Source: a candidate division KSB1 bacterium (GTDB lineage Bacteria; Zhuqueibacterota; JdFR-76; DREG01). From it: a stretch of DNA of 21,448 bases. Positions 52 through 21,448 of this stretch are shown piece by piece. The stretch's first letter is position 1. Each line of letters starts with the position of its first letter. The stretch is from positions 1-21,448 of the forward strand of contig JADFJB010000083.1 of assembly GCA_022566355.1 (NCBI GenBank). Reading direction: 5' to 3'. The notes below the pieces were generated by a model. The model was not told the DNA's origin and did no database searches. It saw only the letters and a list, made by a program, of their open reading frames with translations. The position numbers and the translations under genes are program-made.

Positions 52-81
52 AAAATAGTCTGTCTCTATCCCATTGTGTCT

Positions 82-351
82 ATGAGCGAAGCCCCGGAAG
101 AAGAAATCATCTGTCAATGTTTTCAGGTCTCGGATGTGACCATCAAGGGTTACATAAAATCTCGAAACCTGACTGAGATCGAACATATAACTGATGTCTG
201 CGGTGCCGGAGGAGGATGTCAGTCCTGCCACATGCTTCTGCAACTGTTCATCGACCAGCAACATAAAAAGATCCCCGAAAAAGTTGCAGAATCGAGCAAC
301 GGCCATTCCCCAAAACGTGGTATCTTCGGCAAGCTGTTTGCACGATTTTAA
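82..351 (+). CDS. BFD-type [2Fe-2S] ferredoxin (bacterioferritin-associated ferredoxin-like)
   Basis: This is a small protein of 89 residues from the ATG at 82; a GTG two codons upstream (76) is an alternative start. Counting from the GTG, it has Cys13-x-Cys15 and Cys48-x2-Cys51, the CxC...CxxC spacing of the BFD-like [2Fe-2S] domain, plus an extra Cys42 just before a Gly-rich turn. In E. coli, Bfd passes electrons to bacterioferritin to release stored iron; the domain also occurs in NifU and nitrite reductases, so the partner here is uncertain. The last 30 or so residues are a polar, basic tail (ending GKLFARF) beyond the usual ~64-residue Bfd. The perfect promoter and Fur box upstream fit induction under iron limitation. 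larC follows 26 bases later and is probably co-transcribed. Confidence 0.82.
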   Translation: MSEAPEEEIICQCFQVSDVTIKGYIKSRNLTEIEHITDVCGAGGGCQSCHMLLQLFIDQQHKKIPEKVAESSNGHSPKRGIFGKLFARF

Positions 352-377: not shown

Positions 378-1559
378 ATGAAAATCGCTTATTTTGATTG
401 CCGATCCGGAATTAGTGGCGACATGATTCTGGGTGCCCTGATAGATTTGGGAGTGGATTTCAAAGCCATTCAAAAAGGCCTGAAGACCCTGCTGCTGAAA
501 GGTTATCATCTAAAAACCCGCCGCGTGAAACGCGGGGCTGTGGGAGGCACCAAGTTTGATGTGGGGGTCAATCCATCAGCACACACCCATTCCAGAAATA
601 TCCGAGACATTCAAAAGATCGTTCAAGGTTCCAAACTTCCCAAACAGGTCATGGCGCGATCGCTGGCAATATTCGAGCGCATAGCGCGGGCAGAAGCCCG
701 GGTGCACCGGATTCGCATTGACAAAGTTCACTTTCACGAAGTTGGCGCGGTCGATTCCATCATCGACGTGGTGGGCGGTGTGTTGGCCTTGGAACTGTTG
801 AGGGTGGACCGGGTTCTGGCTTCGCCGATCAACACGGGAGAGGGCACGGTGGCCTGCGACCATGGCATTTTACCGGTTCCGGCTCCCGCTACTTTGGAGC
901 TTTTAAAAGGTATTCCGTGTTATTCCAGCGGAGTCCCTAAAGAATTAGCCACGCCCACCGGTGTGGCCATGATCGGGTTTTGGGCAGAAAAATTTCAATC
1001 CCTGCCCCTCATGACGATTCAAAAAACCGGGTACGGTGCGGGAACCCATATCGTCAAAACCCAGCCTAATTTGTTGCGTATTATTCTGGGGGAAGGAGCG
1101 GGCCGGGCTGGGGAACGCGGGACTCTGATTGAAACCAACATTGATGACATGAACCCAGAGTTTTATGAGCATGTCATGGCGATCTTGTTTTCTGCTGGCG
1201 CGCTGGACGTGTTTTTCACTCCCATCATCATGAAGAAAAACCGGCCCGCCGTGAAATTGTCGGCCTTGGTTCCTCCGGATCGAAGAGAAGAGGCCGAGCG
1301 CATTTTATTGACCGAAACCTCGACCTATGGTGTCCGGAGCTGTGAGATGGACCGCCTGGTATTGGAACGGGAGCAACGCCAGGTCAAAACCCCTTACGGC
1401 AAGGTGACCGTGAAAGTAGGCAGACTGGATGGCAATCGGATCCATTTTTCGCCGGAATACGAGGACTGCCGGAAGATCGCCAAATTGAAGGGATTGCCGA
1501 TTAAAGTTGTTTACGACACGGTTGCCAGGTGCGCCGAGCAGGACCTTGGCGGGGAGTAG
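378..1559 (+). CDS. larC: LarC, nickel insertion protein for the nickel-pincer (NPN) cofactor
   Basis: The 393-residue protein begins MKIAYFDCRSGISGDMILGA, the LarC N-terminal signature (most relatives have Phe where this has Arg10), and carries the conserved HFHEVGAVDSIIDVVG segment near residues 121-136. LarC is the CTP-dependent cyclometallase that inserts nickel into pyridinium-3,5-bisthiocarboxylic acid mononucleotide, the cofactor of lactate racemase and related enzymes. Length and motifs indicate a full single-ORF LarC, not the LarC1/LarC2 frameshift arrangement of Lactobacillus plantarum. An AGGA ribosome site precedes the ATG. No larA, larB or larE is in the window. It sits 26 bases after the ferredoxin gene, so the Fur box may also control it. 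The gene is GC-rich compared with everything right of 2165. Confidence 0.92.
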   Translation: MKIAYFDCRSGISGDMILGALIDLGVDFKAIQKGLKTLLLKGYHLKTRRVKRGAVGGTKFDVGVNPSAHTHSRNIRDIQKIVQGSKLPKQVMARSLAIFERIARAEARVHRIRIDKVHFHEVGAVDSIIDVVGGVLALELLRVDRVLASPINTGEGTVACDHGILPVPAPATLELLKGIPCYSSGVPKELATPTGVAMIGFWAEKFQSLPLMTIQKTGYGAGTHIVKTQPNLLRIILGEGAGRAGERGTLIETNIDDMNPEFYEHVMAILFSAGALDVFFTPIIMKKNRPAVKLSALVPPDRREEAERILLTETSTYGVRSCEMDRLVLEREQRQVKTPYGKVTVKVGRLDGNRIHFSPEYEDCRKIAKLKGLPIKVVYDTVARCAEQDLGGE

Positions 1560-2141: not shown

Positions 2142-2164
2142 AATTTAGTGAGTTTACATATAAG

Positions 2165-2237
2165 AGCGGGAGACGGGGTTCGAACCCGCGACATACAGCT
2201 TGGAAGGCTGCAACTCTACCAACTGAGTTACTCCCGC
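2165..2237 (-). tRNA. tRNA-Gly (anticodon TCC)
   Basis: The minus strand folds into a standard 73-base cloverleaf. The acceptor stem is GCGGGAG/CTCCCGC, the T arm carries GGTTCGAACCC, and the anticodon loop reads CTTCCAA, giving TCC. The discriminator base is U and no CCA is encoded. It is the last gene of a Thr-Tyr-Gly cluster, 15 bases after tRNA-Tyr. Confidence 0.95.
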
Positions 2238-2252
2238 TTTTTTTAAAAATTG

Positions 2253-2334
2253 TGGAGAGGGAAGGATTCGAACCTTCGAAGGCTTCGCCAGCAGATTTAC
2301 AGTCTGCCCCCTTTGACCGCTCGGGAACCTCTCC
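2253..2334 (-). tRNA. tRNA-Tyr (anticodon GTA)
   Basis: This is an 82-base class II tRNA on the minus strand. The acceptor stem is GGAGAGG/CCTCTCC, the long variable arm is TGGCGAAGCC, the T loop contains GGTTCGAATCC, and the anticodon loop reads CTGTAAA, giving GTA. The discriminator is A and no CCA is encoded. It sits between tRNA-Thr and tRNA-Gly. Confidence 0.95.
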
Positions 2335-2417
2335 AACAAATTTTCATTTTAAAAATTAACCAGCCGAATGCAATACTTATGAAAAAAGACAAGCAACGAA
2401 GCATTCGGCTTGAATTG

Positions 2418-2490
2418 AGCCGATGAGAGGACTCGAACCTCCGACCGGCTGATTACAAATCAGCTGCTCTACCAGCTGAGCTACATCGGC
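2418..2490 (-). tRNA. tRNA-Thr (anticodon TGT)
   Basis: This is a 73-base minus-strand cloverleaf with acceptor stem GCCGATG/CATCGGC, D arm AGCTCAGCTGGTAGAGC, and anticodon loop TTTGTAA, giving TGT. The discriminator is U and no CCA is encoded. It is the first tRNA of the cluster and matches the first position of the E. coli thrU-tyrU-glyT-thrT-tufB order. Confidence 0.95.
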
Positions 2491-2521
2491 GACTAACTTA
2501 ACTTGGTAATGAATTTGTTTT

Positions 2522-2539
2522 AAAATTTTCAAAGAACCA
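2522..2539 (-). promoter_or_regulatory. boxA-like antitermination element in the tRNA leader
   Basis: On the minus strand the leader reads TGGTTCTTTGAAAATTTT. This closely resembles the rrn boxA of Gram-positive bacteria (TGTTCTTTGAAAAC) that binds NusB/NusE (S10). It lies 31 bases upstream of tRNA-Thr and about 90 bases after the predicted promoter. boxA normally belongs to rRNA leaders. A role in a tRNA(-tuf) transcript is plausible but unproven, and an AT-rich chance match is possible. Confidence 0.4.
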
Positions 2540-2626
2540 TACTTCTGCCTAACAGTAACCTCAATATTAGTATAAAATCTGGTAGGCATTCCTTTCCATT
2601 TAGACTCATGTCCAAAGGAACCTAAA

Positions 2627-2654
2627 AATATAATAAATAGAAATGGGATGTCAA
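2627..2654 (-). promoter_or_regulatory. Promoter of the tRNA cluster
   Basis: On the minus strand a perfect TTGACA (2649-2654) is followed 16 bases later by TATATT (2627-2632). It lies between the cysS stop and tRNA-Thr, in a stretch with no supported gene, and would start a leader of about 130 bases. This allows the tRNAs to be transcribed independently of gltX-cysS. Confidence 0.6.
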
Positions 2655-2662
2655 GTGAATTT

Positions 2663-4108
2663 TTAGGTTTTTTCTTTCTTCCAAATACTTTTTTCGGGTT
2701 GGTCTTCTATCACATAACCAATGCTAGCAAGTTCCTCGCGTATTTTATCGCTTAAGTCCCAAAGCTTATTTTTTCTCAATTCACTTCGTATTCCGACTAA
2801 TAAGTCCAATACCTTGGATAATTCTTCCTCCCCACTAGAATCATGTTCATCATTGTCCAATATGGATAAAATTTCATCCACTTCCACAATAAATTCTTTT
2901 ACGTTTACCAATAACAGCTTTTGATTTTCTGTTAGATTACCCCTGGTAATGATTATATTACATTCTTTTACTAACTCGAAAACCTTACCAATAGCAAGGG
3001 CAGTATTAAAATCATCCTCCATTGCCGATATATATTCTTGTTTAATCCGCTCCTGGAAATTTTTGAATTCTTTTTCTTTATTTGTAAGAGATTTTAATTG
3101 TAATGAATTCGAATCAATTTCTATACTGTTCAAATTATCGAATAGATTCTGTAATCTTTCCCATCCACGCTGTGCATCTTCCAGGATTTCTTCAGAATAA
3201 TTAATAGGGCTGCGGTAATGTTTCTGAAGAAAGAAAAGACGTAATACTTGTGGTTTATAGGATTTTAAAATATCTCGAACAATCAAAACATTGCCGATGG
3301 ATTTTGACATTTTTTTATCGCGAATATTCAAAAAACCATTGTGCAGCCAATACTTAGCAAATTTTACATTTCCACTTCCACAGCTTTGAGCAATTTCATT
3401 TTCATGATGTGGAAAAATTAAATCTTCTCCACCTGCATGAATATCAAAATCTTTGCTAAGATATTTCATCGACATGGCTGAGCATTCCAAATGCCAACCA
3501 GGACGGCCTTTACCCCAGGGACTATCCCAAGCAGGTTCATCTGGCTTGGCAGCTTTCCAAAGAGCAAAATCAAGTGGATTTTCTTTCCTTTCGTCTATTT
3601 CCACTCTAGAACCGGCTTGTAAATCTTCAATATTCTTCCCGCTTAATTTTCCGTAGGATTGAAATTTTTCGATACTGTAGTAAACATCACCATCCAGAAC
3701 ATAGGCAATCCCTTTAGCCACAAGTTCCTGAACTAAAGTTATCATATCATCTAAATGTTCAGTTGCCTTTGGTGAAACATCAGGTAGTTTCACAAGCAAT
3801 TGATCCAGATCATCGAAATAGGCTTTTGTGAACTCATCAGCTACTTCTTTTGCAGTCCGATTTTCTTTTATAGATCGTTGAATGATTTTGTCATCCACAT
3901 CTGTGATATTAACCACATACTTAACATCATAACCACGATATTGAAGGAACCTGCGGAAAACATCATAGATGATAAACGGGCGGGCATTTCCGATATGGAA
4001 ATAATCATAAACCGTAGGACCACAGACATAAAACGAAACTTTACCAGCTTGTAATGGTTCAAATTTTTCTTTTTCCCCGGATAAGGTATTGTATAAATGA
4101 ATTGCCAT
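2663..4108 (-). CDS. cysS: Cysteine--tRNA ligase
   Basis: This is a 481-residue class I aminoacyl-tRNA synthetase that charges tRNA-Cys in the cytoplasm. The HIGH motif is His38-Ile-Gly-Asn41 and the KMSKS loop is Lys266-Ser270. The zinc site that selects cysteine is visible as Cys29 (in YVCGPTVYD), Cys209 (in WHLECS), His234 and Glu238 (in HHENE). The C-terminal third is the helical DALR anticodon-binding region. Length fits the family (E. coli 461). The ATG at 4106-4108 is three bases after the gltX stop with no strong ribosome site, which suggests translational coupling. It is the last protein gene of the housekeeping array before the tRNAs. Confidence 0.96.
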   Translation of the reverse strand: MAIHLYNTLSGEKEKFEPLQAGKVSFYVCGPTVYDYFHIGNARPFIIYDVFRRFLQYRGYDVKYVVNITDVDDKIIQRSIKENRTAKEVADEFTKAYFDDLDQLLVKLPDVSPKATEHLDDMITLVQELVAKGIAYVLDGDVYYSIEKFQSYGKLSGKNIEDLQAGSRVEIDERKENPLDFALWKAAKPDEPAWDSPWGKGRPGWHLECSAMSMKYLSKDFDIHAGGEDLIFPHHENEIAQSCGSGNVKFAKYWLHNGFLNIRDKKMSKSIGNVLIVRDILKSYKPQVLRLFFLQKHYRSPINYSEEILEDAQRGWERLQNLFDNLNSIEIDSNSLQLKSLTNKEKEFKNFQERIKQEYISAMEDDFNTALAIGKVFELVKECNIIITRGNLTENQKLLLVNVKEFIVEVDEILSILDNDEHDSSGEEELSKVLDLLVGIRSELRKNKLWDLSDKIREELASIGYVIEDQPEKSIWKKEKT

Positions 4109-4111
4109 TTT

Positions 4112-5560
4112 TTATGTATTGATCGCTTTTTGTATGAATTGTTTACTTTTTTCTAACCCCAGTAATTCAACAACATTTGGTAACTCCAACCCATGCTCAA
4201 GTCCGGTTAATGCCATACGAAAAGGCATCCACAAATCCTTTCCTTTCACTCCTGTTTTTTGCTGAATTGTTTTCATGATTTGCTTAAAAGTTTCGCCACG
4301 CCAATCTGTAATATTTTTTGTTTCATTTAAAAACTCGGCAAAGATTTTTTTTGAAGACTCTGATTTCATCAAAGTGTCGTTCTCAAACATTACCTCATCC
4401 TGGAAAAATATTGAACATCTCGTTGCTAATTCTTGTAGATAATCTGCCCTGGTGATGACTGCGCCAATACATTTTTTGGCAAATGTTTCGTCTGAAATAT
4501 CATAGCCTTCCTTTTCAAGAAAGGGGATCGCCATATTCGTTATTTTATCGAATTCTATATTCCGCAGGTACCATCCGTTCATCCAGTTAAATTTCTCCAA
4601 ATCAAAAATAGCTGCGGATTTTGATAATCTTTCCAGGGTGAACTCTTCAACGAGCCGTTTCATCGAAAGCAACTCATCGCCAGTCGGCGACGACCAACTT
4701 AATAAGCTCAGAAAATTCACCAGGGCTTCAGGAAAATAACCTTTCTCACGATATTGTCTAACTTGATTGTCACCATGACGTTTCGACAACTTCGACCGAT
4801 CAGATCCCAAAATCATTGGAATATGAACAAAATTGGGGGAAGTGTGCCCCAGGGCATTGTGGATTAATATCTGCTTTGGTGTATTGGAAAGATGGTCTTC
4901 ACCCCGGACGATATGTGAGATTGACATCAATGTATCATCAACCGCTGCGGCGAAATTATAAGTTGCAATTCCAACCGCTCGAAGAATTACAAAATCACTG
5001 ATGTTATCTCCATCAAAAGTAATAGTTCCTCTTACAATATCGGAAAAGCTTATTTCTTCAGAAGGGACTCTAAAACGGATGACCGGTTTACGTCCTTGTG
5101 ATTCAAACTGGCGAATTTGTTCTTGAGATAATTGATAACAGGTACCATCGTAATTTACACTCTCGCCTTTAGAAATTGCCAATTCTGATTTTTCCTTAAT
5201 TTCTTCAGCCGTACAATAGCATTTAAAGGCATTCCCCTGCGCCAATAATTTATTTGCATAATCTTGATAAATCTGTAACCGATCCGATTGTTTGTATGGT
5301 CCGAAATCACCCCCAACATCAGGTCCTTCATCCCAATCGAGTCCAAGCCATTTCAGGTCATCTAGAAGTTCTTTATAATATTCTGTGGTAGATCGATCCA
5401 TGTCGGTATCCTCTACCCGAAGAATAAAACTACCACCGCAATGCCTGGCAAAGAGCCAATTTAAAATTGCAGTACGGGCATTACCCACATGCAAATAGCC
5501 AGTCGGGCTGGGTGCAAACCGCACCCGAATATTAATATGATTCTGTGATAGTTCTGACAT
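4112..5560 (-). CDS. gltX: Glutamate--tRNA ligase
   Basis: This class I synthetase charges tRNA-Glu. I start it at the ATG at 5558-5560 (MSELSQNHINIRVRFAPSPT), giving 482 residues. The reading frame extends 13 codons further to a TTG at 5599, but that extension is not family-like. Motifs from the N-terminus are RFAPSPTGYLHVGN (HIGH region), RVEDTD, a CxC...C zinc-type segment (KCYCTAEE ... GTCY), and KLSKRHGD (KMSKS). The helical anticodon-binding domain fills the C-terminus. Whether it also misacylates tRNA-Gln for the amidotransferase route cannot be told here. It follows ispF after about 80 bases and is tightly linked to cysS. Confidence 0.96.
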   Translation of the reverse strand: MSELSQNHINIRVRFAPSPTGYLHVGNARTAILNWLFARHCGGSFILRVEDTDMDRSTTEYYKELLDDLKWLGLDWDEGPDVGGDFGPYKQSDRLQIYQDYANKLLAQGNAFKCYCTAEEIKEKSELAISKGESVNYDGTCYQLSQEQIRQFESQGRKPVIRFRVPSEEISFSDIVRGTITFDGDNISDFVILRAVGIATYNFAAAVDDTLMSISHIVRGEDHLSNTPKQILIHNALGHTSPNFVHIPMILGSDRSKLSKRHGDNQVRQYREKGYFPEALVNFLSLLSWSSPTGDELLSMKRLVEEFTLERLSKSAAIFDLEKFNWMNGWYLRNIEFDKITNMAIPFLEKEGYDISDETFAKKCIGAVITRADYLQELATRCSIFFQDEVMFENDTLMKSESSKKIFAEFLNETKNITDWRGETFKQIMKTIQQKTGVKGKDLWMPFRMALTGLEHGLELPNVVELLGLEKSKQFIQKAINT

Positions 5561-5639
5561 TGGTTTTATTTTAAATCTCAAAAAATTATTAACTTTCAAG
5601 AAACTTGAAGTTTCTCATATAAAATTTGGTTCGTCGCTT

Positions 5640-6134
5640 TTACGAATCTCTGCCAATATTCAGTGTCTTCACCATGGCAACAGATTGGGCGGCAATACCT
5701 TTTCCTTCTCCAATAAAACCAAGCTTCTCATTGGTCGTGGCTTTTATGGAAATTATTGATGATGAAACATCCAGTGCATTCGCTATTTTTGCACACATTT
5801 CCGGAATCAAATCACTAATCTTTGGCTGTTCGGCTATAAGTACTGCATCTATATTAATAATACCAAATCCTATTTGGGCCAGTTTATCATTCACATTTTC
5901 CAATAATAACAGGCTCGAAATGTCCTTCCACTCAGGATCTGTATTGGGAAAATGTTGACCTATATCACCTAATGCTGCCGCTCCTAACAATGCGTCTGAA
6001 ATTGCGTGACTTAAAACATCCGCATCAGAATGGCCTTCCAATCCTTTTTCAAAAGGAATAATCACGCCGCCCAAAATTAATGGCCGGCCATAAACCAATC
6101 TGTGGACATCATAGCCAATCCCAACCCGTGTCAT
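5640..6134 (-). CDS. ispF: 2-C-methyl-D-erythritol 2,4-cyclodiphosphate synthase
   Basis: The 164-residue enzyme of the MEP pathway cyclises CDP-ME-2-phosphate to ME-cyclodiphosphate with release of CMP. The N-terminal metal site GYDVHR (Asp9-x-His11) and the GHSDADVLSHAISDALLGA block (third metal ligand His43) are intact. Further on are DIGQHFPNTDPEWK and the C-terminal KATTNEKLGFIGEGKGIAA substrate loop. The start ATG overlaps the ispD stop by 4 bases (ATGA), so the two are translationally coupled. They catalyse non-consecutive MEP steps and are fused in some bacteria; here they remain separate. Confidence 0.96.
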   Translation of the reverse strand: MTRVGIGYDVHRLVYGRPLILGGVIIPFEKGLEGHSDADVLSHAISDALLGAAALGDIGQHFPNTDPEWKDISSLLLLENVNDKLAQIGFGIINIDAVLIAEQPKISDLIPEMCAKIANALDVSSSIISIKATTNEKLGFIGEGKGIAAQSVAMVKTLNIGRDS

Positions 6135-6817
6135 TGTTTTTTCTCCAGTAAATAACGTGCAAAATCTAAATCTTCCTGTGTGGTTATTTTAATATTCTGC
6201 TTCGATCCTTCAATTACCTTAACGGATATGTTCTGCCTTTCAACGATCATTGAATCATCGGTAGCAAAAAAACCATCTTCAAATGCCTTTTTGTAGGCTG
6301 AATAAATCAATTGAAAGTCAAAAACCTGTGGTGTCTGGACATTCCATAAATTGCTGCGATCAATCGTTTCCTTAACTTCATGATCATCCACAAGTTTTAC
6401 GGTCGATGATATAGGTATTGCTGTAATTACTGCTCCATGATTTACACAAAGTCTAACAGAATCCTCGATTAAATCTACTGGAATAAATGGCCTAACACCG
6501 TCATGAATGATCACATAATCCGTGCTGTTTACCAGGGATTGTAATCCTGCGAAAACAGACGATTGACGTTCCAGCCCGCCAGCTACTATGTGTTTCACCT
6601 TACGAACGCCAAATTCATTAACAATTTCTTCTCGTGTAAATTGGATTTCTTCTTCTTTTACTACTAGAACAATATCATCAACTATTTCACAATTCTCGAA
6701 TTGAAATAAGGTATAAAAAAGAATCGGCTTAGCGCCGATTCGAATAAATTGTTTAGCTATATTGTTTTGCATTCTCCGGCCACTGCCTGCGGCCGGAATC
6801 ACAGCAGAAACTTTCAA
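6131..6817 (-). CDS. ispD: 2-C-methyl-D-erythritol 4-phosphate cytidylyltransferase
   Basis: The 228-residue enzyme couples CTP to MEP in isoprenoid precursor synthesis. It shows the nucleotide-binding VIPAAGSGRRM loop at residues 6-16, IHDGVRPFIP in the middle, and the LWNVQTPQVF and FFATDDSMIVE segments that bind MEP. The start codon is TTG at 6815-6817: the N-terminal motif begins almost immediately and no in-frame ATG lies close upstream. It is 20 bases after queA and overlaps ispF by 4 bases. Confidence 0.95.
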   Translation of the reverse strand: MKVSAVIPAAGSGRRMQNNIAKQFIRIGAKPILFYTLFQFENCEIVDDIVLVVKEEEIQFTREEIVNEFGVRKVKHIVAGGLERQSSVFAGLQSLVNSTDYVIIHDGVRPFIPVDLIEDSVRLCVNHGAVITAIPISSTVKLVDDHEVKETIDRSNLWNVQTPQVFDFQLIYSAYKKAFEDGFFATDDSMIVERQNISVKVIEGSKQNIKITTQEDLDFARYLLEKKQ

Positions 6818-6837
6818 TACTGGTATCTTAAAATCGT

Positions 6838-7866
6838 TTAAATAATAATCATTGCATCGCCATAACTGTAGAATCGATATTTTTCTTCCATAGCCTTGGC
6901 GTATGCTTCAAAAATCATTTCTTTTCCTGCAAATGCAATGACCAGCATGAGTAATGTAGAACCGGGTAAATGGAAATTTGTTATCAAAGAATCAACAATT
7001 TTAAAATTGTATGTTGGAAAAATGAATTTATCTGTCCAACCTTTTTCGGATTTAACCTGGCAATCAGATGTTACAGCTGTTTCCAATGCACGAGTTGTTG
7101 TGGTTCCCACAGAAATGATCTTGCCTCCATTGGCTTTGGTCTCGTTAATGATACGAGCAGAATCTTCATAAACTTGAAAATATTCGGAATCCATTTTATG
7201 TCTAGACAAATCTTCAACCTGGACGGGTCTGAAGCTACCCAGCCCGACATGAAGTACAATTGGTACAATCTTAATACCTTTCTTTTTAATCTTCTCCAGT
7301 AATTTTTCCGTAAAATGAAGACCAGCAGTTGGGGCAGCAACTGCTCCACGAACCGATGCATATACTGTTTGATACCTTTCTTTGTCTAACGCTTCCGGTT
7401 CTCTTTTAATATAAGGTGGTAAAGGCGATTTGCCCATTTTCTCAACAATTGAGAAAAAATTACCATTATAATTAAACCGAACAACCCTGCCTCCGGAAAC
7501 AGTATTGTCAATTACATCACAAAACAAATCATCTGTTAAGTGCAGTCGATTCCCTACCCTCACTTTTCTTGCTGGTCTTACCAACACCTCCCACAAACTA
7601 CTTTCCAATTCGCGAAGGAGAAATATTTCCACTTCTGCATCTGTCTTTTCTTTTGTACCCATCAATCGAGCTGGAAACACTTTGGTTTCATTAATAACTA
7701 AACAATCACCTGCTTTTAAATATTCAATAATATTTTTAAAGTGGTAATGTGAAATTGTTTGCTCTTCACGATTGATAACCAGTAATCGAGATTCATCCCT
7801 TTTCTTGGTTGGATATTGTGAAATTAATTCTTCAGGTAAATTATAGGTAAATTCTGATAACTTCAT
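6838..7866 (-). CDS. queA: S-adenosylmethionine:tRNA ribosyltransferase-isomerase
   Basis: The 342-residue enzyme moves the ribosyl group of SAM onto 7-aminomethyl-7-deazaguanine in tRNA, forming epoxyqueuosine at the wobble position of GUN anticodons. Family signatures are LPEELISQYPTKKRDESRLL near the N-terminus, NETKVFPARL, APTAGLHFTEKLL, HVGLGSFRPV and ITNFHLPGSTLLMLV. A GGAG ribosome site lies 8 bases before the ATG. ruvB ends 31 bases upstream; the ruvB-queA neighbourhood is common in bacteria. Confidence 0.96.
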   Translation of the reverse strand: MKLSEFTYNLPEELISQYPTKKRDESRLLVINREEQTISHYHFKNIIEYLKAGDCLVINETKVFPARLMGTKEKTDAEVEIFLLRELESSLWEVLVRPARKVRVGNRLHLTDDLFCDVIDNTVSGGRVVRFNYNGNFFSIVEKMGKSPLPPYIKREPEALDKERYQTVYASVRGAVAAPTAGLHFTEKLLEKIKKKGIKIVPIVLHVGLGSFRPVQVEDLSRHKMDSEYFQVYEDSARIINETKANGGKIISVGTTTTRALETAVTSDCQVKSEKGWTDKFIFPTYNFKIVDSLITNFHLPGSTLLMLVIAFAGKEMIFEAYAKAMEEKYRFYSYGDAMIII

Positions 7867-7897
7867 ATTCTTACTCCAGTTCGAAAAACGACTATAA

Positions 7898-8944
7898 TTA
7901 AAATAAGCTTGTTTGTAATGAACGCCCTTGATCCAGGCCGAAATGTTTATATCCTAGAGCTGTAACCTCCCTTCCTCTCGATGTCCTTTTTAAAAGTCCT
8001 TCCTTTATAAGGAATGGTTCATAAATTTCCTCTATCGTATCACTTTCTTCACCAACCGAAACGGCCAATGAATTAATTCCTACAGGACCTCCATCAAATT
8101 TTTCAATCAATATGGTTAAAATACGTTTGTCCATTTCGTCAAGCCCTTTTTCATCCACATCCAATCTTTCAAGTGAAGATTGAGTGATCTCTTCTGTGAT
8201 GGAACCATTCCCTTCAATTTGCGCAAAATCCCGAATACGTCGCAAAAGTCGATTTGCAATACGGGGAGTTCCTCTTGCCCGTCGTGAAATTTCCACTGCA
8301 CTTTCTTCATCCATTTCCACTTTCAATATCTTAGCAGATCGTTTGACAATTAAACAAAGATCATCCGGAGGATAATAATCCAAGCGATTGACGACTCCAA
8401 ATCGATCGCGTAAAGGTGAAGTCAACAAACCCGCTCGGGTAGTTGCACCGACCAATGTAAAATGAGGCAGAGAAAGCTGTAAATTTCTGGCATTTGCTCC
8501 CCTGTCGATTACGATATCTAACCGAAAATCCTCCATCGCCGAGTACATGTATTCTTCCACGACCGGATTTAAGCGATGGATTTCATCAATAAAAAACACA
8601 TCTCGTTCATTTAAATTGGTAAGAATACCCGCTAAATCACCTGCTTTTTCCAATGCCGGACCTGAGGTTAATTTAATGTCCACTTCCATTTCTCTGGCCA
8701 TGATATGCGCTAAAGTAGTTTTGCCCAAACCCGGAGGACCATAAAATAACACATGATCCAGTGATTCACCACGTGCTTTGGCCGCTTCAATAAACACTGA
8801 GAGGTTTTCTTTCATCTTTTTTTGACCCACAAATTCGGAGAATCGGCCTGGTCGAAGAGACAAGTCAAACTCTAACTCTCCTAATTGCCTCTCGGGAGAT
8901 GTTGTGGATTCACGGTGTTTTTCTTTAGTGATATTTTCTGTCAT
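7898..8944 (-). CDS. ruvB: Holliday junction branch-migration ATPase RuvB
   Basis: This 348-residue AAA+ motor forms hexamers that pump DNA through the RuvA-bound Holliday junction. Visible motifs are Walker [10 protein letters not shown], Walker [10 protein letters not shown], sensor 1 VGATTRAG, and the arginine finger in SPLRDRFG. The C-terminal winged helix includes [18 protein letters not shown]. The first ~25 residues are a variable polar leader, so the start could lie slightly downstream. The ATG follows a possible 25-codon ORF by 8 bases and ruvA by 94. Confidence 0.97.
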
Positions 8945-8952
8945 TTGTTAAT

Positions 8953-9030
8953 CTATTCTAGGTTTTCAAGGTCAGCTAAATCCTGGTATCTTCCAATTGC
9001 TTTTTTAAAATGTAACCAGTCTTTTTTCAT
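8953..9030 (-). CDS. Possible 25-residue small ORF between ruvA and ruvB
   Basis: An ATG at 9028-9030, 8 bases after the ruvA stop, opens a 25-codon frame (starting MKKDWLHFKKAIGRY, ending DLENLE) that closes with TAG 8 bases before the ruvB ATG. It fills almost the whole ruvA-ruvB gap and would be translationally coupled on both sides. The peptide is charged and helix-prone with no recognisable family. A short AG-rich stretch precedes it. It may be a chance ORF or a remnant of a longer gene; confidence is low. Confidence 0.3.
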   Translation of the reverse strand: MKKDWLHFKKAIGRYQDLADLENLE

Positions 9031-9038
9031 GCTTCTAC

Positions 9039-9632
9039 TCACTTAGTTTTTTGCAAAGCCAACTTCACCACATTTTCGAGAGATAGTTCGTCTCCATTTG
9101 AATTAAGAACCGAACCTACCATTTTTGATGCTTCAATCTCTCGATAGCCTAACGAAACCAAAGCCGCAGCGGCTTTCTCTCCCAATTTCAATTCACTATC
9201 ACTTTTAAATGAAATACCGGCATCCTTTGCTTTCGAAAATTTATCCCGCAATTCAGTTACCAGTCGTTGAGCCATTTTATTTCCAACCCCAGGCACCTGG
9301 GTTAACAATGCATGATTTTGTGTGATCATTGCTTGTGTAAAATTATCAACTGAAATTTTTGACAAAATCCCTTGCGCTAGTTTCGGACCTACTCCTGATA
9401 CGGAAATCAATTTCAAAAACAGGCTTTTCTGCTTCTCATCGCTAAAACCATAAAGCTGCAAAATATCTTCACGGACATGAACATAGGTCAATAACTTTAC
9501 CTGCTCATGGAGTTGGCCGATGCTTTCATAGGTGGATATGGGAATATCAAACTCGTAGCCGACGCCATTCACATCAAGAACTACTTTGGTCGGATTTTTA
9601 ACAGTCAATTTTCCCTGGATATAGGCAAACAT
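9039..9632 (-). CDS. ruvA: Holliday junction DNA-binding protein RuvA
   Basis: The 197-residue protein forms the tetramer that holds the four-way junction flat and loads RuvB. The N-terminal OB fold contains VHVREDILQLYGF. Two helix-hairpin-helix motifs follow: VSGVGPKLAQGIL (about residues 77-90) and VPGVGNKMAQRLV (about 112-125). The C-terminal domain that contacts RuvB (LKLGEKAAAALVSLGYREIEA) is complete. The ATG is 7 bases after the ruvC stop. Confidence 0.96.
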   Translation of the reverse strand: MFAYIQGKLTVKNPTKVVLDVNGVGYEFDIPISTYESIGQLHEQVKLLTYVHVREDILQLYGFSDEKQKSLFLKLISVSGVGPKLAQGILSKISVDNFTQAMITQNHALLTQVPGVGNKMAQRLVTELRDKFSKAKDAGISFKSDSELKLGEKAAAALVSLGYREIEASKMVGSVLNSNGDELSLENVVKLALQKTK

Positions 9633-9639
9633 AATAATA

Positions 9640-10119
9640 CTAATTCTTCCTGTTAGATCGGTGACAATGGCAAATTACGACTGCTAATGCATCAGATATA
9701 TCATAACCAAATGAATCCGACTCCAAATGAATTTGGGTGCATACCATTTTTTTTACCTGCTCTTTGGATGCGTTGCCATAACCAGTAACTGCCATTTTGA
9801 TTTCTCTTGGGCTATATTCCGAAACCGGTAAATTGTCCTTTGCAGCTGCCACTAAAGCTGCACCCCTGGCATGTCCCATCAACAAAGCGATTTTCGGATT
9901 TGCAGCGTAAAATACTTCTTCAACTGCAACTTCATCGGGCGCATACTCTTTTATCAGTTCAACAACTTTTTGAAAAATAATTGCTAAACGCTCAGATAAT
10001 TTCTGTGTAGTTTTCGTTTTAATCTCACCTAAATTAAGTGAGAAATATTGATTCTTATGAAATTGAACCAAAGCGAAACCAGTCGAGGAAAGACTTGGAT
10101 CTATACCCAACACTATCAA
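9640..10119 (-). CDS. ruvC: Crossover junction endodeoxyribonuclease RuvC
   Basis: The 159-residue resolvase cuts Holliday junctions symmetrically. Acidic catalytic residues are visible: Asp7 in VLGIDPSLSSTGFA, Glu in VAVEEVFYA, and the C-terminal DISDALAVVICH. The start codon is TTG at 10117-10119, preceded at 7 bases by a clear GGGAG ribosome site; a GTG two codons later is the alternative. It follows yebC by about 58 bases and is followed immediately by ruvA, a standard yebC-ruvC-ruvA arrangement. Confidence 0.95.
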   Translation of the reverse strand: MIVLGIDPSLSSTGFALVQFHKNQYFSLNLGEIKTKTTQKLSERLAIIFQKVVELIKEYAPDEVAVEEVFYAANPKIALLMGHARGAALVAAAKDNLPVSEYSPREIKMAVTGYGNASKEQVKKMVCTQIHLESDSFGYDISDALAVVICHCHRSNRKN

Positions 10120-10177
10120 AGTTTAACTCCCAAGGTATTATTATTAATAAAAACATGAAAAACATGGACTGGGCTAA

Positions 10178-10930
10178 TCAGGTTTGTTCCAGTTCTTCTA
10201 TATATTTTTCATCGATATCGAAATTTGAATAAACATTTTGCACATCCTCATGATCATCCAAGGCATCCATCAATTTGAGCATCTGCCCAGCTTGATTACC
10301 TTCAATCTTGACGAAATTTTGCGGATACAATGTAATCTCGGCGGATTCAACAGGGAATGAGGCTGCTTCCAAAGCTTTTTCGGTTTCTTCAAGACGATCC
10401 GGGGAGGTTATGATTTCAAAATAATTATCTTCATTTTTTATATCTTCCGCGCCGCCATCTAACGCTGCCATTAAGACCTCATCTTCTTGTAAACTTTCCG
10501 CCGAAACTTGAATAATACCCTTTTTTTCGAAAATCCATGCAACACTCCCGGATTCTCCAAGGTTACCATGATATTTACCAAGAAGATGTCTTAGTTCTGC
10601 AACTGTTCGGTTTTTGTTGTCGGTTAAAATTTGAATAAATAATGCAGCACCGCCAGGCCCATAGCCCTCGTAAGTTGCTTCCTCGTAAACCACTCCAGGC
10701 AATTCACCGGTTCCACGCTTGATGGCTTTTTCTACATTGGCTTGCGGCATATTTGCACCGCGGGCTGAGGCAATGGCAGTCCGCAAACGTGAATTTGCTG
10801 CTTCATCACCTCCACCAATCTTTGCGGAGATGGTAATTTCTTTGATAAGACGCGTAAAAATTTTTCCCCGCACAGCATCTGTTTTAGCCTTTTTATGCTT
10901 AATTGAACTCCATTTGCTGTGTCCCGACAT
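10178..10930 (-). CDS. yebC: YebC/TACO1 family protein
   Basis: I start at the ATG at 10928-10930 (MSGHSKWSSIKHKKAKTDAV), giving 250 residues, because a GGAGG ribosome site lies 4-5 bases upstream and this is the universal family start. The frame continues open to 10987, but those 19 extra residues are not family-like. Characteristic segments include RGKIFTRLIKEI, NSRLRTAIASARGANMP, YEGYGPGGAALFI, and ESGSVAWIFEKKG. Family members have been described as transcription regulators and, for the mitochondrial TACO1 and some bacterial homologues, as factors that help ribosomes through difficult sequences such as polyproline. It heads the ruvCAB array. Confidence 0.95.
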   Translation of the reverse strand: MSGHSKWSSIKHKKAKTDAVRGKIFTRLIKEITISAKIGGGDEAANSRLRTAIASARGANMPQANVEKAIKRGTGELPGVVYEEATYEGYGPGGAALFIQILTDNKNRTVAELRHLLGKYHGNLGESGSVAWIFEKKGIIQVSAESLQEDEVLMAALDGGAEDIKNEDNYFEIITSPDRLEETEKALEAASFPVESAEITLYPQNFVKIEGNQAGQMLKLMDALDDHEDVQNVYSNFDIDEKYIEELEQT

Positions 10931-11081
10931 TAAACCTCCGCAATTTTTCCAAATTCTAAATGTAATATAAAATTTACCCCAGACCAAGTAAAAATTGCTT
11001 TGTTACCTGCTGATATAAACTTAATCACAGATAAATTACTTTGAACCTAGACTTTTATAAGGTAAGATTTTTGTGGAATAC

Positions 11082-11591
11082 CTAAGGAGATTTACTTTTT
11101 TTTTCGATTATTGTTCGAATAATCCAGGCATCACCATATCCTAGACTTACTGCCTTTTTTTGCAGAGCTTCAGCGTCGTGGCGATGCTCGAAATCACCTA
11201 CTCTAATTTTATAATATGGAGTTTCAAATTCCAAATAGACATTCGCATCTTCAAACTGTAGCATCGCCTCTCGCACAATTTCTGAGGCATCTTCCTGATT
11301 GGTCATTGATCCGACCTGAATCCTGAATCCTGGTACTTTTATGATTTCTTCTTCAACAGAAGGATTCTGGTTATTTTCCCCGGGATTCAGATAACGCTCG
11401 GCTCCAGAGGCTTTTTGTTCTTTACCAAATTTTGGCTCGACAACATATTCAATATCTCCCAAAGTGGCCGGATCAAAATCTTCGACAATGCCGGTATCAT
11501 TCTTATCTTGTTGCTCATTCTGTTGAACGGCATTTTGGGTAGATGCACATCCCCAAAAAATAGATATAAATAAAATGAATAAACTTTTCAC
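11082..11591 (-). CDS. SPOR-domain lipoprotein
   Basis: The 169-residue protein begins with a short signal sequence (MKSLFILFISIFWGCASTQN) whose Cys15 is in a plausible lipobox, so it is probably anchored in the outer membrane or periplasmic face. A polar, acidic linker (residues ~20-85) leads to a C-terminal SPOR domain: PGFRIQVGSMTNQEDAS...YYKIRVGDFEHRHDAEALQ. SPOR domains bind denuded glycan strands of peptidoglycan at division sites. The start is GTG with an AGGA site about 10 bases upstream. It lies 11 bases after etfA in the same direction, so it is probably co-transcribed, although no functional link is obvious. Confidence 0.85.
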   Translation of the reverse strand: MKSLFILFISIFWGCASTQNAVQQNEQQDKNDTGIVEDFDPATLGDIEYVVEPKFGKEQKASGAERYLNPGENNQNPSVEEEIIKVPGFRIQVGSMTNQEDASEIVREAMLQFEDANVYLEFETPYYKIRVGDFEHRHDAEALQKKAVSLGYGDAWIIRTIIEKKSKSP

Positions 11592-11602
11592 AATAGGTTT
11601 TC

Positions 11603-12583
11603 CTAATTTGATTTTAATTTTTTGATTTCTTCCGTTAATTTCGGCACGATCGCAAAAGCATCGCCAACAATGCCATAATCTGCTTTAGAAAATATCGGAG
11701 CATCTTTGTCTTTGTTGATCGCTACAATCACTTTTGAAGAAGACATACCTGCCAAATGTTGAATAGCGCCTGAGATACCTACCGCAACATACAAGTTCGG
11801 TGAAACCGTTTTTCCGGTTTGACCAACTTGTTCTGAATGGGGACGCCATCCGGCATCGACGACGGCTCGTGAAGATCCCACCGCAGCGCCTAAAGCTTCC
11901 GCCAACTCTTCGACAAGATGAAAGTTTTCTGGCCCCTTGAGTCCACGCCCACCCGAAACGATTACATCAGCTTCAGACAATTCCACTTTTTCGCCACCGG
12001 TCTTTTTGAATTCTTTGAATATAGTCCTAATCTCACCAGGATCAAAATCTAATTTTTCAACTTCTGCCGCAGTACCAGGATTGGTTTTTTTGGGAGTGAA
12101 TATGTTTGGACGCAGAGAAGCCAATTGTGGCGAAGCATTAAATCCAACCGTTACAAAAGCTTTTCCGGCATAAACCGGCCGTTCGGCTTGGAGTTTGCCA
12201 TCAACAATATCCACGGCAGTGCAATCGGTCGCTAATCCGACTGATAATTTAGCTGCAACTCTTGGCGCCAAATCCTTTCCGATAGACGTGGCAGAAAACA
12301 ACACAATTTCCGGCTTCGCGGTTTCAATAGCTGCTAAAACTGCTTGGGTGTAAGCTTCCGGAATATAGTGGGAACATACATCATTTTCGGCTGCAAAAAC
12401 CTTCTTCAGTCCATATTCACCAACACTAAATGCATCTTCCGGACAATCAGATCCGATCACTAACCCAAGGGAATCCCTCCCCGATTTATCACCTAATTCT
12501 ACAGCAGCAGTCGCAACCTCATATGCAGATTTCCGATATTTCCCATCACGTTGTTCTAGAACAGCTAGTACTGAACCTGACAT
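11603..12583 (-). CDS. etfA: Electron transfer flavoprotein, alpha subunit
   Basis: The 326-residue FAD-binding subunit pairs with EtfB to carry electrons from acyl-CoA and other dehydrogenases to the quinone pool or, in bifurcating versions, to other acceptors. The FAD domain is clear: VIVSGGRGLKGPENF, then GSSRAVVDAGWRPHSEQVGQTG, VAVGISGAIQHLAGM, VIVAINKDKDAPIF and ADYGIVGD. A GGAGG site lies 4 bases before the ATG, so it is translated independently of etfB. That fits the unusual ~880-base separation from etfB, which contains a four-helix-bundle gene and repeats. Confidence 0.95.
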   Translation of the reverse strand: MSGSVLAVLEQRDGKYRKSAYEVATAAVELGDKSGRDSLGLVIGSDCPEDAFSVGEYGLKKVFAAENDVCSHYIPEAYTQAVLAAIETAKPEIVLFSATSIGKDLAPRVAAKLSVGLATDCTAVDIVDGKLQAERPVYAGKAFVTVGFNASPQLASLRPNIFTPKKTNPGTAAEVEKLDFDPGEIRTIFKEFKKTGGEKVELSEADVIVSGGRGLKGPENFHLVEELAEALGAAVGSSRAVVDAGWRPHSEQVGQTGKTVSPNLYVAVGISGAIQHLAGMSSSKVIVAINKDKDAPIFSKADYGIVGDAFAIVPKLTEEIKKLKSN

Positions 12584-12611
12584 TTAACCTCCAAAATTTA
12601 AACACTGAAAC

Positions 12612-12670
12612 AAGAAATCCGAATTTCGAAATCCTAAACAATACCGAAATTATAAATATTAATTTTCAAA
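12612..12670. repeat. Direct repeat, distal copy (tail of four-helix-bundle unit)
   Basis: This ~59-base AT-rich stretch, with the core CGAAATCCTAAACAATACCG, recurs at 13228-13287 with only scattered differences. The two copies lie on either side of the four-helix-bundle gene. In the direction of that gene it is the tail of the unit, just upstream of etfA. Confidence 0.75.
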
Positions 12671-12688
12671 TCTGAGTCTACTCTAAAA

Positions 12689-12759
12689 ACCGATGCAATC
12701 GCTTTTTCCAAAAGCAATGTTACATAAAAACAAATACTTATGAGAGCGATGGAATCGGT
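12689..12759. repeat. Spaced imperfect inverted repeat after the four-helix-bundle gene
   Basis: ACCGATGCAATCGCT (12689-12703) is the near reverse complement of AGCGATGGAATCGGT (12745-12759): 15-base arms with two mismatches around a 41-base centre. A smaller hairpin GCTTTT-TCC-AAAAGC sits inside, beginning within the left arm. It lies between the four-helix-bundle stop and etfA. It could be a terminator, a protein site, or ends of a small element. Confidence 0.5.
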
Positions 12760-12795
12760 ATCCCACCTTTTTAGAATGAACTCAAATCTAATTAA

Positions 12796-13161
12796 TTACT
12801 TACTCTTTTCTAAAATTGCCCCAAATATTTTCATTAATTCTGTAGACTCTTGAATTAGGTTTTGCCTGGCTTTGTCACTGATTTCACTATTTGTTTCCAA
12901 TAAGTTTAACCAATATCTGCTTTCTTTAGCTTCTTTTTTGCAAATCTTAATTCTCATCATAAAATCTTTTTTGCCTAATGCTTCATTTGCTTCAATGTAA
13001 TTTGCTCCAACAGAACCAGTAGATCGAATGAGTTGTTTTGAAATCTCAATATTCTGTAAATTTAATTGAATCTCTTTCGTCAATTGAATTATTTTTTTAG
13101 CAAATTGTAACGTTCTTTCCTCTAAATCATATCTCTTTGAAGAACTGATAATAGCCCCCAT
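12796..13161 (-). CDS. Four-helix-bundle protein (23S rRNA intervening-sequence family)
   Basis: The 121-residue, entirely helical, charged protein has the family pattern: a helix ending in LTKEIQLNLQNIEISKQL, then RSTGSVGANYIEANEALGKKDF, then KICKKEAKESRYWLNLLE. Members were first seen in intervening sequences of 23S rRNA genes and later as free-standing genes of unknown function, often in AT-rich repeat surroundings. Here it lies between etfB and etfA on their strand, with a duplicated leader and a broken second copy immediately upstream (13310-13390). It looks like an insertion into the etf operon. No transposase or signal peptide is visible. Confidence 0.85.
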   Translation of the reverse strand: MGAIISSSKRYDLEERTLQFAKKIIQLTKEIQLNLQNIEISKQLIRSTGSVGANYIEANEALGKKDFMMRIKICKKEAKESRYWLNLLETNSEISDKARQNLIQESTELMKIFGAILEKSK

Positions 13162-13179
13162 TGTGTTTTATTTATGTTC

Positions 13180-13215
13180 ATTGAATCATTCGAATTTGTT
13201 TAGAATTTAGAAATT
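13180..13215. repeat. 36-base identical leader repeat, copy A
   Basis: This block, beginning ATTGAATCATTCGAATTTG, is identical to 13408-13443. It lies just upstream of the intact four-helix-bundle start codon; the other copy lies just upstream of the degenerate start. It shows that leader plus gene start were duplicated as a unit. Confidence 0.85.
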
Positions 13216-13227
13216 TATACTTAAAAT

Positions 13228-13287
13228 ACGAAATCCTAATTCCGAAATCCTAGACAATACCGAATTTACAAATGCTAAATTTTCCAA
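13228..13287. repeat. Direct repeat, proximal copy (tail of the broken unit)
   Basis: Partner of 12612-12670. In the minus-strand direction it follows the broken four-helix-bundle remnant, exactly as the other copy follows the intact gene, so it marks the tail of the first repeat unit. Confidence 0.75.
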
Positions 13288-13309
13288 ACTAATTATATTA
13301 CTGATTTCA

Positions 13310-13390
13310 TTAATTTAATTATTCTCTCCTAAATTGTAATGGATATTTCCTCTAAATCAAATCTCCTTGTAGAACTGATGATAGTCCCAT
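13310..13390 (-). pseudogene. Degenerate 5' remnant of a second four-helix-bundle gene
   Basis: Reading from the ATG at 13388-13390, the DNA aligns base for base with the start of the intact gene at 13161 (shared runs such as GATTTAGAGGAAA and TTACAATTT), but small deletions shift the frame and a TAG follows within 13 codons. Homology fades after about 80 bases, where the tail repeat begins, so most of the coding region has been deleted. Together with the repeated leader and tail it is a collapsed tandem copy of the neighbouring unit. Confidence 0.7.
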
Positions 13391-13407
13391 TGTTTGTTAT
13401 TTTTTTT

Positions 13408-13443
13408 ATTGAATCATTCGAATTTGTTTAGAATTTAGAAATT
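13408..13443. repeat. 36-base identical leader repeat, copy B
   Basis: Identical to 13180-13215. It lies 16 bases from the etfB stop and precedes the degenerate four-helix-bundle start. The inner sequence (GAATTTGTTTAGAATTTAGAAATTC) is itself loosely palindromic. Confidence 0.85.
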
Positions 13444-13459
13444 CGAGATTAGATATTTC

Positions 13460-14209
13460 TTAAATCACTTTTGCTTCTTCATTTAACAACCGCACCAACT
13501 CCGGCACCGCTTCAATGCCTTCACCCACAATTTTTCCCGGCGGCCTCTCAGGTGGATATGCCATTGTTTGAGTAACCAGCTTTACTTCCTCTATATCCAC
13601 AGATTGGGTTTCGATCGGCTTTTTCTTAGCCATCATGATCCCTTTTAAAGATGCATAACGAGGCTCGTTAATGCCTTTTTCAACCGTCAGCATTGCGGGC
13701 AATTGACACTCGACTACTTCAACCCCACCCTCTACTTCACGATGAGCGGTGACTTTACCCTCTTCGATTTCGGCTTTGGCTACATAAGTGATACATGGCA
13801 CATCCAACAGTGCAGACAGTCTTGGACCAACTTGTTCGTTATAATCGTCGATGGCTTGTTTTCCCATTAAGATCAGATCATATGGCATTTTCTTAAGCGC
13901 TTGGGCTAGTGCAAGAGAAACAGCATGCGAATCCAACACTGTATCTTCTGCAACAATATGGATAGCTTTATCCACACCCATGGCCAACACGGAACGAAGT
14001 GCGGTAGCAGCGCCTTCGGGTCCCAGGCATAGAGCAGTCACCTCTCCGCCCATTCTTTCCTTGATTTGCAGCGCCTCTTCGATGGCATATTCGTCGAATG
14101 GATTCACAATAAATTTCACAGCGGATGCGTCCAGTGTTTTGCCGTCTGCACCTATCTTTACTTTGGTTGTAGAATCCGGTGTTTGCTTAACAAGAATGAT
14201 AATGTTCAC
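13460..14209 (-). CDS. etfB: Electron transfer flavoprotein, beta subunit
   Basis: The 249-residue partner of EtfA has the expected N-terminus (MNIIILVKQTPDS), the VNPFDEYAIEEALQIKE block near residues 36-52, the nucleotide-site segment GKQAIDDYNEQVGPRLSALL, and MLTVEKGINEPRYASLKGIM. The start is GTG at 14207-14209 with no strong ribosome site. Twelve tandem heptamers lie 31-115 bases upstream, in the likely promoter or leader. etfA is displaced by the four-helix-bundle insertion, though direction is preserved. Confidence 0.95.
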   Translation of the reverse strand: MNIIILVKQTPDSTTKVKIGADGKTLDASAVKFIVNPFDEYAIEEALQIKERMGGEVTALCLGPEGAATALRSVLAMGVDKAIHIVAEDTVLDSHAVSLALAQALKKMPYDLILMGKQAIDDYNEQVGPRLSALLDVPCITYVAKAEIEEGKVTAHREVEGGVEVVECQLPAMLTVEKGINEPRYASLKGIMMAKKKPIETQSVDIEEVKLVTQTMAYPPERPPGKIVGEGIEAVPELVRLLNEEAKVI

Positions 14210-14235
14210 GGTTTAAACTCACTATAGAATTGATA

Positions 14236-14324
14236 ATTGGTCATTGGTCATTGGTCATTGGTCATTGGTCATTGGTCATTGGTCATTGGTCATTGGTCAT
14301 TGGTCATTGGTCATTGGTCATTGG
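14236..14324. repeat. Heptanucleotide tandem repeat, 12 units of TCATTGG
   Basis: Twelve uninterrupted, identical copies of TCATTGG occupy 14241-14324, preceded by a partial unit ATTGG. In the direction of etfB the unit reads CCAATGA. The array starts 27 bases upstream of the etfB GTG and ends about 40 bases before the remains of the divergent toxin gene. Perfect heptamer arrays expand and contract by slippage, and similar ones are scattered through filamentous cyanobacterial genomes. Here the array could alter promoter spacing for etfB. Confidence 0.95.
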
Positions 14325-14365
14325 TAAGAAAATTTATCGGATAAAGAGTTTGAAAGCAAACGTTT

Positions 14366-14619
14366 TTGGCGACATACCACGGTTATGGTAATTTGAGCTG
14401 CATTGACTGCAGCAAGATTGAGTTTAGAGAAACTGGTGGTGCAAGAAAACTCAGATTTGCCATCCCCGGTAAAGGAAAAAGTGGTGGCCTTAGAATCATT
14501 TATTATTCAAAGTTAATGAAAGAATATACCTGCTTCTCGTTTATAAAAAATCAAAACAAGAACATTTAACTCCAAAACAACACAAAACCCTTAAATCACT
14601 CATAGAGAGGTTAAAGTAA
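14366..14619 (+). pseudogene. HigB/RelE-type toxin, frameshifted and 5'-truncated
   Basis: Codons from about 14422 encode ETGGARKLRFAIPGKGKSGG, the hallmark core of the HigB2/NadT-type RelE toxins, then RIIYY. At 14507-14508 one base of the next codon is missing (TC where TAC is expected). If one base is restored, the frame continues KVNERIYLLLVYKKSKQEHL and a further family-like tail to a TAA at 14617-14619 that overlaps the antitoxin ATG, the normal coupled layout. The first ~45 residues of the family are unrecognisable, so the 5' end is also decayed or replaced, and the heptamer array lies just upstream. The mRNA interferase is almost certainly inactive unless the deletion is a sequencing error. 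Confidence 0.75.
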
Positions 14620-14924
14620 TGGACGATAAATTATTTGACCGACTCGTCGAAAGCACCAAGCAAGCTATAGAGATATCCGAAGGTAAAGTGAAAGAGTTTC
14701 GTTCTTTTACCTTTGAGTTGCCTGAAGATATAAAGACCATTCGAAATGATAAGTTGCAGATGAGTCAAGAAAAGTTTGCCGCCATGCTTGGCGTTTCTAT
14801 AAGAACCTTGCAAGAATGGGAACAAGGACGCCGCAAGCCAAGTGGCGCTGCAAAATCCTTACTTAAAATTGCTTCATTTGCACCTGAGGTAGTCCTGAAA
14901 GCTCTTACACAATCTACTCGCTAA
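14619..14924 (+). CDS. NadS/HigA-type XRE antitoxin
   Basis: The 101-residue protein has a short N-terminal helix (MDDKLFDRLVESTKQAIEI), a β-type stretch (KEFRSFTFELP) and a helix-turn-helix domain from about residue 38 (LQMSQEKFAAMLGVSIRTLQ, then EWEQGRRKPSGAAKSLL). This is the layout of NadS-like antitoxins, which bind their toxin and repress their own operon. Its ATG overlaps the toxin stop (TAATG). The reading frame is intact although the toxin is broken, leaving an orphan antitoxin that might still act as a DNA-binding regulator or anti-addiction protein. Confidence 0.85.
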   Translation: MDDKLFDRLVESTKQAIEISEGKVKEFRSFTFELPEDIKTIRNDKLQMSQEKFAAMLGVSIRTLQEWEQGRRKPSGAAKSLLKIASFAPEVVLKALTQSTR

Positions 14925-15062
14925 CTATTTAGTTTAATTTGAATTATTCATAAATTTACACCGTTAAGACGCAAAGAAACAAAGAGCAAGACTATAAATG
15001 TTTTGGAAACTAAGTACATAAAAAACATAATTATGTGACATATAAAAAATAAACTTAACAAC

Positions 15063-15154
15063 ATCAAAAAAGGCATTGTTAAACCTCCCCTGGCCACTCC
15101 TTAATATTAAGGAGGGGAAAAACCTCTCAGGTTTTTAAAACCTGAGAGGTTTAA
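15063..15154. repeat. Double-hairpin repeat, left copy
   Basis: This 92-base element recurs at 15848-15946 in the same orientation. It has two stems. One is the palindrome CTCCTTAATATTAAGGAG (15097-15114). The other is a perfect 16-base stem, AAACCTCTCAGGTTTT (15120-15135) and its complement (15137-15152), with a single central base. It resembles REP/BIME or MITE-like extragenic palindromes and could also stop transcription in either direction. It lies 34 bases before the AbiEii-like gene. Confidence 0.85.
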
Positions 15155-15188
15155 TTAGAATTTTTCAGGAAGATTAAGGAGTAGGTCC

Positions 15189-15818: not shown

Positions 15819-15847
15819 GTAGATTGCACTCAAAAATACTTATCAAT

Positions 15848-15946
15848 ATCAAAAAAAGGCATAGTCAAACCTCCCCTAACCCCTCCTTGAACAATTGAAC
15901 AAGGAAGGGAAAAACCTCTCAGGTTTTAAAAACCTGAGAGGTTTAA
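15848..15946. repeat. Double-hairpin repeat, right copy
   Basis: This 99-base partner of 15063-15154 shares the entry (CAAAAAAGGCAT..), the CCTCCCC block, and the perfect 16-base stem AAACCTCTCAGGTTTT (15912-15927) with its complement (15929-15944). The first stem differs in sequence from the left copy but still pairs (CCTTG...CAAGG), so the structure seems conserved rather than the exact bases. It begins 29 bases after the AbiEii-like stop. Confidence 0.85.
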
Positions 15947-16028
15947 TCACAGCTTTTTCGTGATTATGGTTCGAAGGGTCATTTATTCTCAATTATTTTG
16001 CATTAATCAGCCCAAAGCAAAATAACAC

Positions 16029-21432: not shown

Positions 21433-21448
21433 AATGGCGACAATCCGC

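Follow-up and report, generated by a model that had tools for sequence, protein, structure and literature searches.

A metagenomic contig that joins DNA of two phyla inside a tRNA-Gly gene is very probably an assembly chimera

The 3' halves of tRNA genes are known attachment sites. One conserved tRNA locus has the order tRNA-Thr-Tyr-Gly-Thr-tuf(-Trp-secE-nusG), and its counterpart in E. coli is thrU-tyrU-glyT-thrT-tufB. Another locus, which occurs in Nitrospinaceae, places larC, two DUF507 half-genes and tRNA-Gly(CCC) in succession. Misassembly is described by the authors of GUNC as yielding chimeric contigs, in which fragments of different species stand on one contig, and misassemblies of such kind are relatively rare (PMC8201837). 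Here we compare these systems with a stretch of 21,448 bases, referred to as the window, which is the whole of contig C83 in a metagenome-assembled genome (MAG; G000) that comprises 4.62 Mb in 213 contigs and is estimated to be 98.5% complete and 0.21% contaminated. We conclude that C83 is very probably a chimera of two phyla that arose during metagenome assembly and not through gene transfer.

The two arms of the window differ in composition. The left 2141 bases have a G+C content of 50.0%, in contrast to 38.0% for the right arm, whose own windows of 2141 bases range from 33.7 to 42.0% with none above 42.0%. The tetranucleotide distance between the left and right arms is 0.437; pieces of the right arm lie at 0.18-0.30 from the remainder of that arm, and the left arm lies at 0.226 from the Nitrospina contig L035. 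Both profiles shift between the arms. The break in composition and gene content that an earlier note had described from the letters is real, and its line counts (38 of 60 bases G+C at 661 and 21 of 60 at 3001) were reproduced when recounted by eye. The note had placed the break at 2142-2165. Origin changes instead inside the tRNA-Gly gene, between position 2195 and the flank left of 2160, which is found in Nitrospina only.

The left arm (1-2159), with which the contig begins, is Nitrospinota DNA from a Nitrospina-like organism. Positions 3-2237 are 91% identical, unbroken and colinear with positions 6137-8372 of L035 (Nitrospina sp. N074bin53, SMVS01000163.1), and other Nitrospinaceae match almost the same span at 66-70% DNA identity. 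The L035 match and most of the other Nitrospinaceae matches end at 2237, which is the 5' end of tRNA-Gly. Within this 91% block lie a gene for a BFD-like [2Fe-2S] domain protein (76-351, plus strand; Pfam PF04324, E 1e-11) and larC, which encodes a nickel pincer cofactor biosynthesis protein (378-1559, plus strand; PF01969, E 2.4e-145; TIGR00299). These are followed by two minus-strand genes that each encode half of a DUF507 protein, the second or C-terminal half at 1566-1847 (PF04368 positions 95-181, E 7.8e-15) and the first or N-terminal half at 1860-2141 (PF04368 positions 1-93, E 2.1e-13). In a scan of named genomes, the best match to LarC was encoded on the same N074bin53 contig, with 90% amino acid identity, and the matches ranked after it formed a run of Nitrospinaceae and Nitrospinota, to which the MAG is related at the level of the same domain only. 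Among 77 Nitrospinota genomes searched for a donor species that would match at about 100%, the best reached 91%, and a search of the MAG for the neighbouring Nitrospina DNA (L035 1-6136, 6.1 kb) returned only a tRNA-Met match.

We also considered whether the left arm contains no foreign DNA and is native to the lineage of the MAG, with a composition that merely differs locally. LarC is present in about half of the genomes of the host phylum, which is consistent with a native arm, but these proteins are at most 50% identical to that of the window, as opposed to 90% for Nitrospina, and LarC is absent from the two genomes of the same family. No genome listed for the phylum yielded a DUF507 match, all matches outside the MAG fall in other phyla, and C83 is the sole contig within the MAG that carries the family. 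Together with the colinearity of the entire 2.2 kb with Nitrospinaceae, the LarC identities and the absence of DUF507 refute a native arm, to which we assign practically no probability.

The adjacency of DUF507 and tRNA-Gly, which had been called odd, is native to Nitrospinota, although the tRNA there is tRNA-Gly(CCC) and not TCC, such that the oddness persists for the anticodon and for the sequence on the far side of the tRNA. The closeness of the DUF507 start to the tRNA also stands, with a gap of 22 bases (ATG at 2141). Nitrospinota commonly encode DUF507 as two tandem half-genes, the N half and then the C half, close behind tRNA-Gly(CCC), and the repeated occurrence of this adjacency across the phylum may hint at co-expression.

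The right arm (2195-21448) is the MAG's own DNA through about 9.9 kb, as indicated by synteny and DNA identity, and probably so beyond that point. It contains tRNA genes, cysS, gltX, ispF, ispD, queA, ruvB, ruvA and ruvC, among others, with the names from ispD to ruvC taken from translations and not from a family search. Genomes G002, G003, G005, G006 and G019 are syntenic with this arm at 63-70% DNA identity, the longest of them through about 9.9 kb. The first protein gene, cysS (2663-4108, minus strand), shows graded amino acid identity to the MAG's relatives, with 61% in the same family, 53-57% in the same order and 39-53% in the rest of the phylum; full-length Nitrospinota copies are 45-47% identical. 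The comparison of best matches across the break that the earlier note had proposed separates the two sides, with larC assigned to Nitrospinota, cysS assigned to the MAG's phylum and DUF507 missing from that phylum's listed genomes.

Several other features of the right arm were recorded. A 74-base interspersed repeat (5590-5663), which contains the palindrome AGAAACTTGAAGTTTCT, includes the stop codon of ispF and extends over the start called for gltX; five more copies, at 90-97%, are located on C31, C73, C75, C91 and C134, and the predicted RNA fold of the repeat is no better than those of shuffles. Between etfB (13460-14209) and etfA (11603-12583) lies a gene (12796-13161) for a four-helix-bundle protein of the 23S-rRNA-intervening-sequence type. 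A gene resembling NadS-type antitoxins (14619-14924) and, farther along, one for an AbiEii-like nucleotidyltransferase (15189-15818) are found where the coding strand and GC skew switch (14619-15818).

ARAGORN finds all three tRNA genes that the earlier note had read in the order Thr(TGT)-Tyr(GTA)-Gly(TCC), on the minus strand within 2164-2490. The tRNA-Tyr gene (2252-2334, minus strand) is 92.8-94% identical to those of four of five host-phylum genomes and 85.5% identical to that of G019, with Nitrospinota at 80-88%, and the tRNA-Thr(TGT) gene (2417-2490, minus strand) is up to 100% identical to those of host-order genomes, with Nitrospinota at 85.5% or less. Both tRNA-Tyr and tRNA-Thr are thus nearer to the host phylum, which extends the host arm into tRNA-Gly. 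These identities also bear on whether the joint is genuine to some Nitrospina strain, with DUF507 directly beside tRNA-Gly(TCC)-Tyr-Thr, so that host DNA would begin only after tRNA-Thr(TGT). Nitrospinota do have a Thr-Tyr-Gly-Thr-Trp cluster of their own, but the nearest Nitrospina (G131) carries it on another contig and continues with tRNA-Thr(GGT), and the 5' half of tRNA-Gly and the Tyr-Gly spacer in the window resemble those of the host relative G002. Assignment of tRNA-Tyr and tRNA-Thr to Nitrospinota is rejected by the tRNA identities, which identify both as host genes, and we consider a genuine Nitrospinota joint extremely unlikely.

The two arms meet within the tRNA-Gly(TCC) gene (2164-2237, minus strand), which was called by ARAGORN and aligned with five host-phylum tRNA-Gly(TCC) genes and six Nitrospinaceae tRNA-Gly genes. 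Its 5' half is host-like, and its 3' half and trailer are like those of the Nitrospina tRNA-Gly(CCC). Read in the direction of the tRNA, host tRNA-Gly(TCC) sequence extends through the anticodon arm and is succeeded by Nitrospina tRNA-Gly(CCC) sequence that includes the trailer; the last host-like base is 2195. A 35-base block in the 3' half of the gene (2160-2194, minus strand; ATAAGAGCGGGAGACGGGGTTCGAACCCGCGACAT) is identical in the window and L035 and holds the join, and the tRNA part of this block is nearly unchanged in the host's relatives. The length of sequence common to both parents lies between about 13 bases, if the host was like G002, and 35 bases. The join is placed somewhere within 2160-2194, and the tRNA-Gly gene is probably a composite that exists in no cell.

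The host sequence expected beyond this point is missing from the window. All five host-phylum loci that were read continue from tRNA-Thr(TGT)-Tyr-Gly(TCC) into tRNA-Thr(GGT). A tRNA-Trp gene also follows in G002, G003 and G019, and direct reading of G002 revealed tuf, secE, nusG and rplK beyond the tRNAs, with tRNA-Trp between tuf and secE. As the earlier note had pointed out, neither tRNA-Thr(GGT) nor tuf comes after tRNA-Gly in C83. For the MAG as a whole, a DNA search did not recover tRNA-Thr(GGT), and neither did tRNA detection, which scored 150 of 299 candidates and yielded 40 tRNAs; tRNAs for His, Ile(GAT), Val(TAC), Glu(TTC) and Ala(TGC) were likewise missing from these 40, although the MAG is estimated to be 98.5% complete. 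The missing tRNA-Thr(GGT) is by itself weak evidence, since other tRNAs, such as tRNA-His, are also absent from the MAG.

Using the tRNA-Gly-Thr-tuf-Trp-secE-nusG segment of G002 as a query against the MAG, we obtained three main matches, which correspond to the tRNA-Gly of C83, the tuf of the str operon on C37, and positions 32607-36120 of C37. The last of these spans secE/nusG and tRNA-Trp, enters tuf and halts at the contig end. C37 ends at base 36120, which is 226 bases into a second copy of tuf adjoining tRNA-Trp; this fragment matches the other copy at 99.6% identity. The MAG has two tuf genes, one of which is mostly lost at the end of C37. Because C37 breaks inside a near-identical duplicated gene, C83 most likely adjoins the end of C37 in the real genome, and the intervening tRNA-Thr(GGT) and most of a tuf have been lost.

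These observations fit a contig that was falsely joined during assembly. In the host genome, tRNA-Thr(TGT)-Tyr-Gly(TCC) would be expected to lead into tRNA-Thr(GGT), tuf, tRNA-Trp, secE and nusG, and the presence of two near-identical tuf genes would have broken the assembly at the second copy, where C37 ends. The path out of tRNA-Gly then most likely continued across the conserved 3' half of that gene into the genome of a co-occurring Nitrospina-like organism, in which tRNA-Gly(CCC) would be followed by DUF507 and larC. The product would carry 2.16 kb of Nitrospinota DNA on the left end of the contig, attached through a tRNA-Gly gene of mixed origin. The data show where each arm comes from, where the join lies, which host sequences are absent and that tuf is broken; from these we infer that the assembler, or a chimeric read, made the join, rather than a cell. 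Of the two readings offered by the earlier note, a chimeric contig is the one that the data strongly favour: the arms differ in phylum, with Nitrospinota on the left and the host phylum on the right; the join lies in sequence shared by both parents, the 35-base block in tRNA-Gly; and the host continuation is missing, given that tRNA-Thr(GGT) was not found and that C37 ends in the second tuf, at a repeat left unresolved.

The other reading, a transfer boundary, supposes that Nitrospinota DNA truly entered the host at tRNA-Gly and displaced tRNA-Thr(GGT) and tuf, either by recombination between two tRNA-Gly genes or by means of an element that uses the 3' end of a tRNA. The join does fall in the 3' half of a tRNA gene, and the tRNA-Gly reads as an intact gene, as would be expected from such an event, but the arm has no integrase, recombinase or other mobility gene next to the tRNA and holds only the BFD domain protein, larC and DUF507. 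Furthermore, it has the ordinary gene order of a Nitrospinaceae chromosome and ends at its own tRNA-Gly locus, and it extends to the contig end with no return to host DNA within the contig. Host gene order beyond an insert is not kept, as tRNA-Thr(GGT)-tuf is gone; a transfer would thus have deleted a housekeeping tRNA and left tuf truncated at the very assembly break that ends C37. Transfer at the tRNA is therefore very improbable. The 91% identity to Nitrospina would also demand that the event be very recent, and there is correspondingly little chance that a very recent exchange between the phyla recombined Nitrospina chromosomal DNA into the host tRNA-Gly, yielding a hybrid tRNA that still functions and pushing out tRNA-Thr(GGT) and one tuf.

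With the false join as the preferred explanation, the joint is most likely an artefact without biological significance. The genes for LarC, DUF507 and the BFD-like protein should be neither assigned to the MAG or its phylum nor taken as a case of transfer between phyla. The left 2.2 kb of C83 should be excluded from the MAG, and the tRNA-Gly at 2164-2237 is unfit for use as host sequence. More broadly, a MAG with an estimated contamination of 0.21% can still contain a chimeric contig that is joined through a tRNA.

The first three tRNAs of the window stand in the usual order of the tRNA-Thr-Tyr-Gly-Thr-tuf locus, which the host's relatives retain in full, but in the window that order is lost past tRNA-Gly because the contig switches organism there. 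To the Nitrospinaceae tRNA-Gly(CCC)-DUF507-DUF507-larC locus, the window is alike in genes, order, spacing and 91% DNA identity, and it differs in its TCC anticodon and in a tRNA 5' half that is host sequence. Like the chimeric contigs described with GUNC, C83 carries two source genomes that are joined in conserved sequence, and the low contamination estimate did not reveal them. Nothing of substance sets C83 apart from those chimeras, except that its join can be placed within 35 bases of one tRNA gene and that the cause of the host break, a duplicated tuf, is visible.
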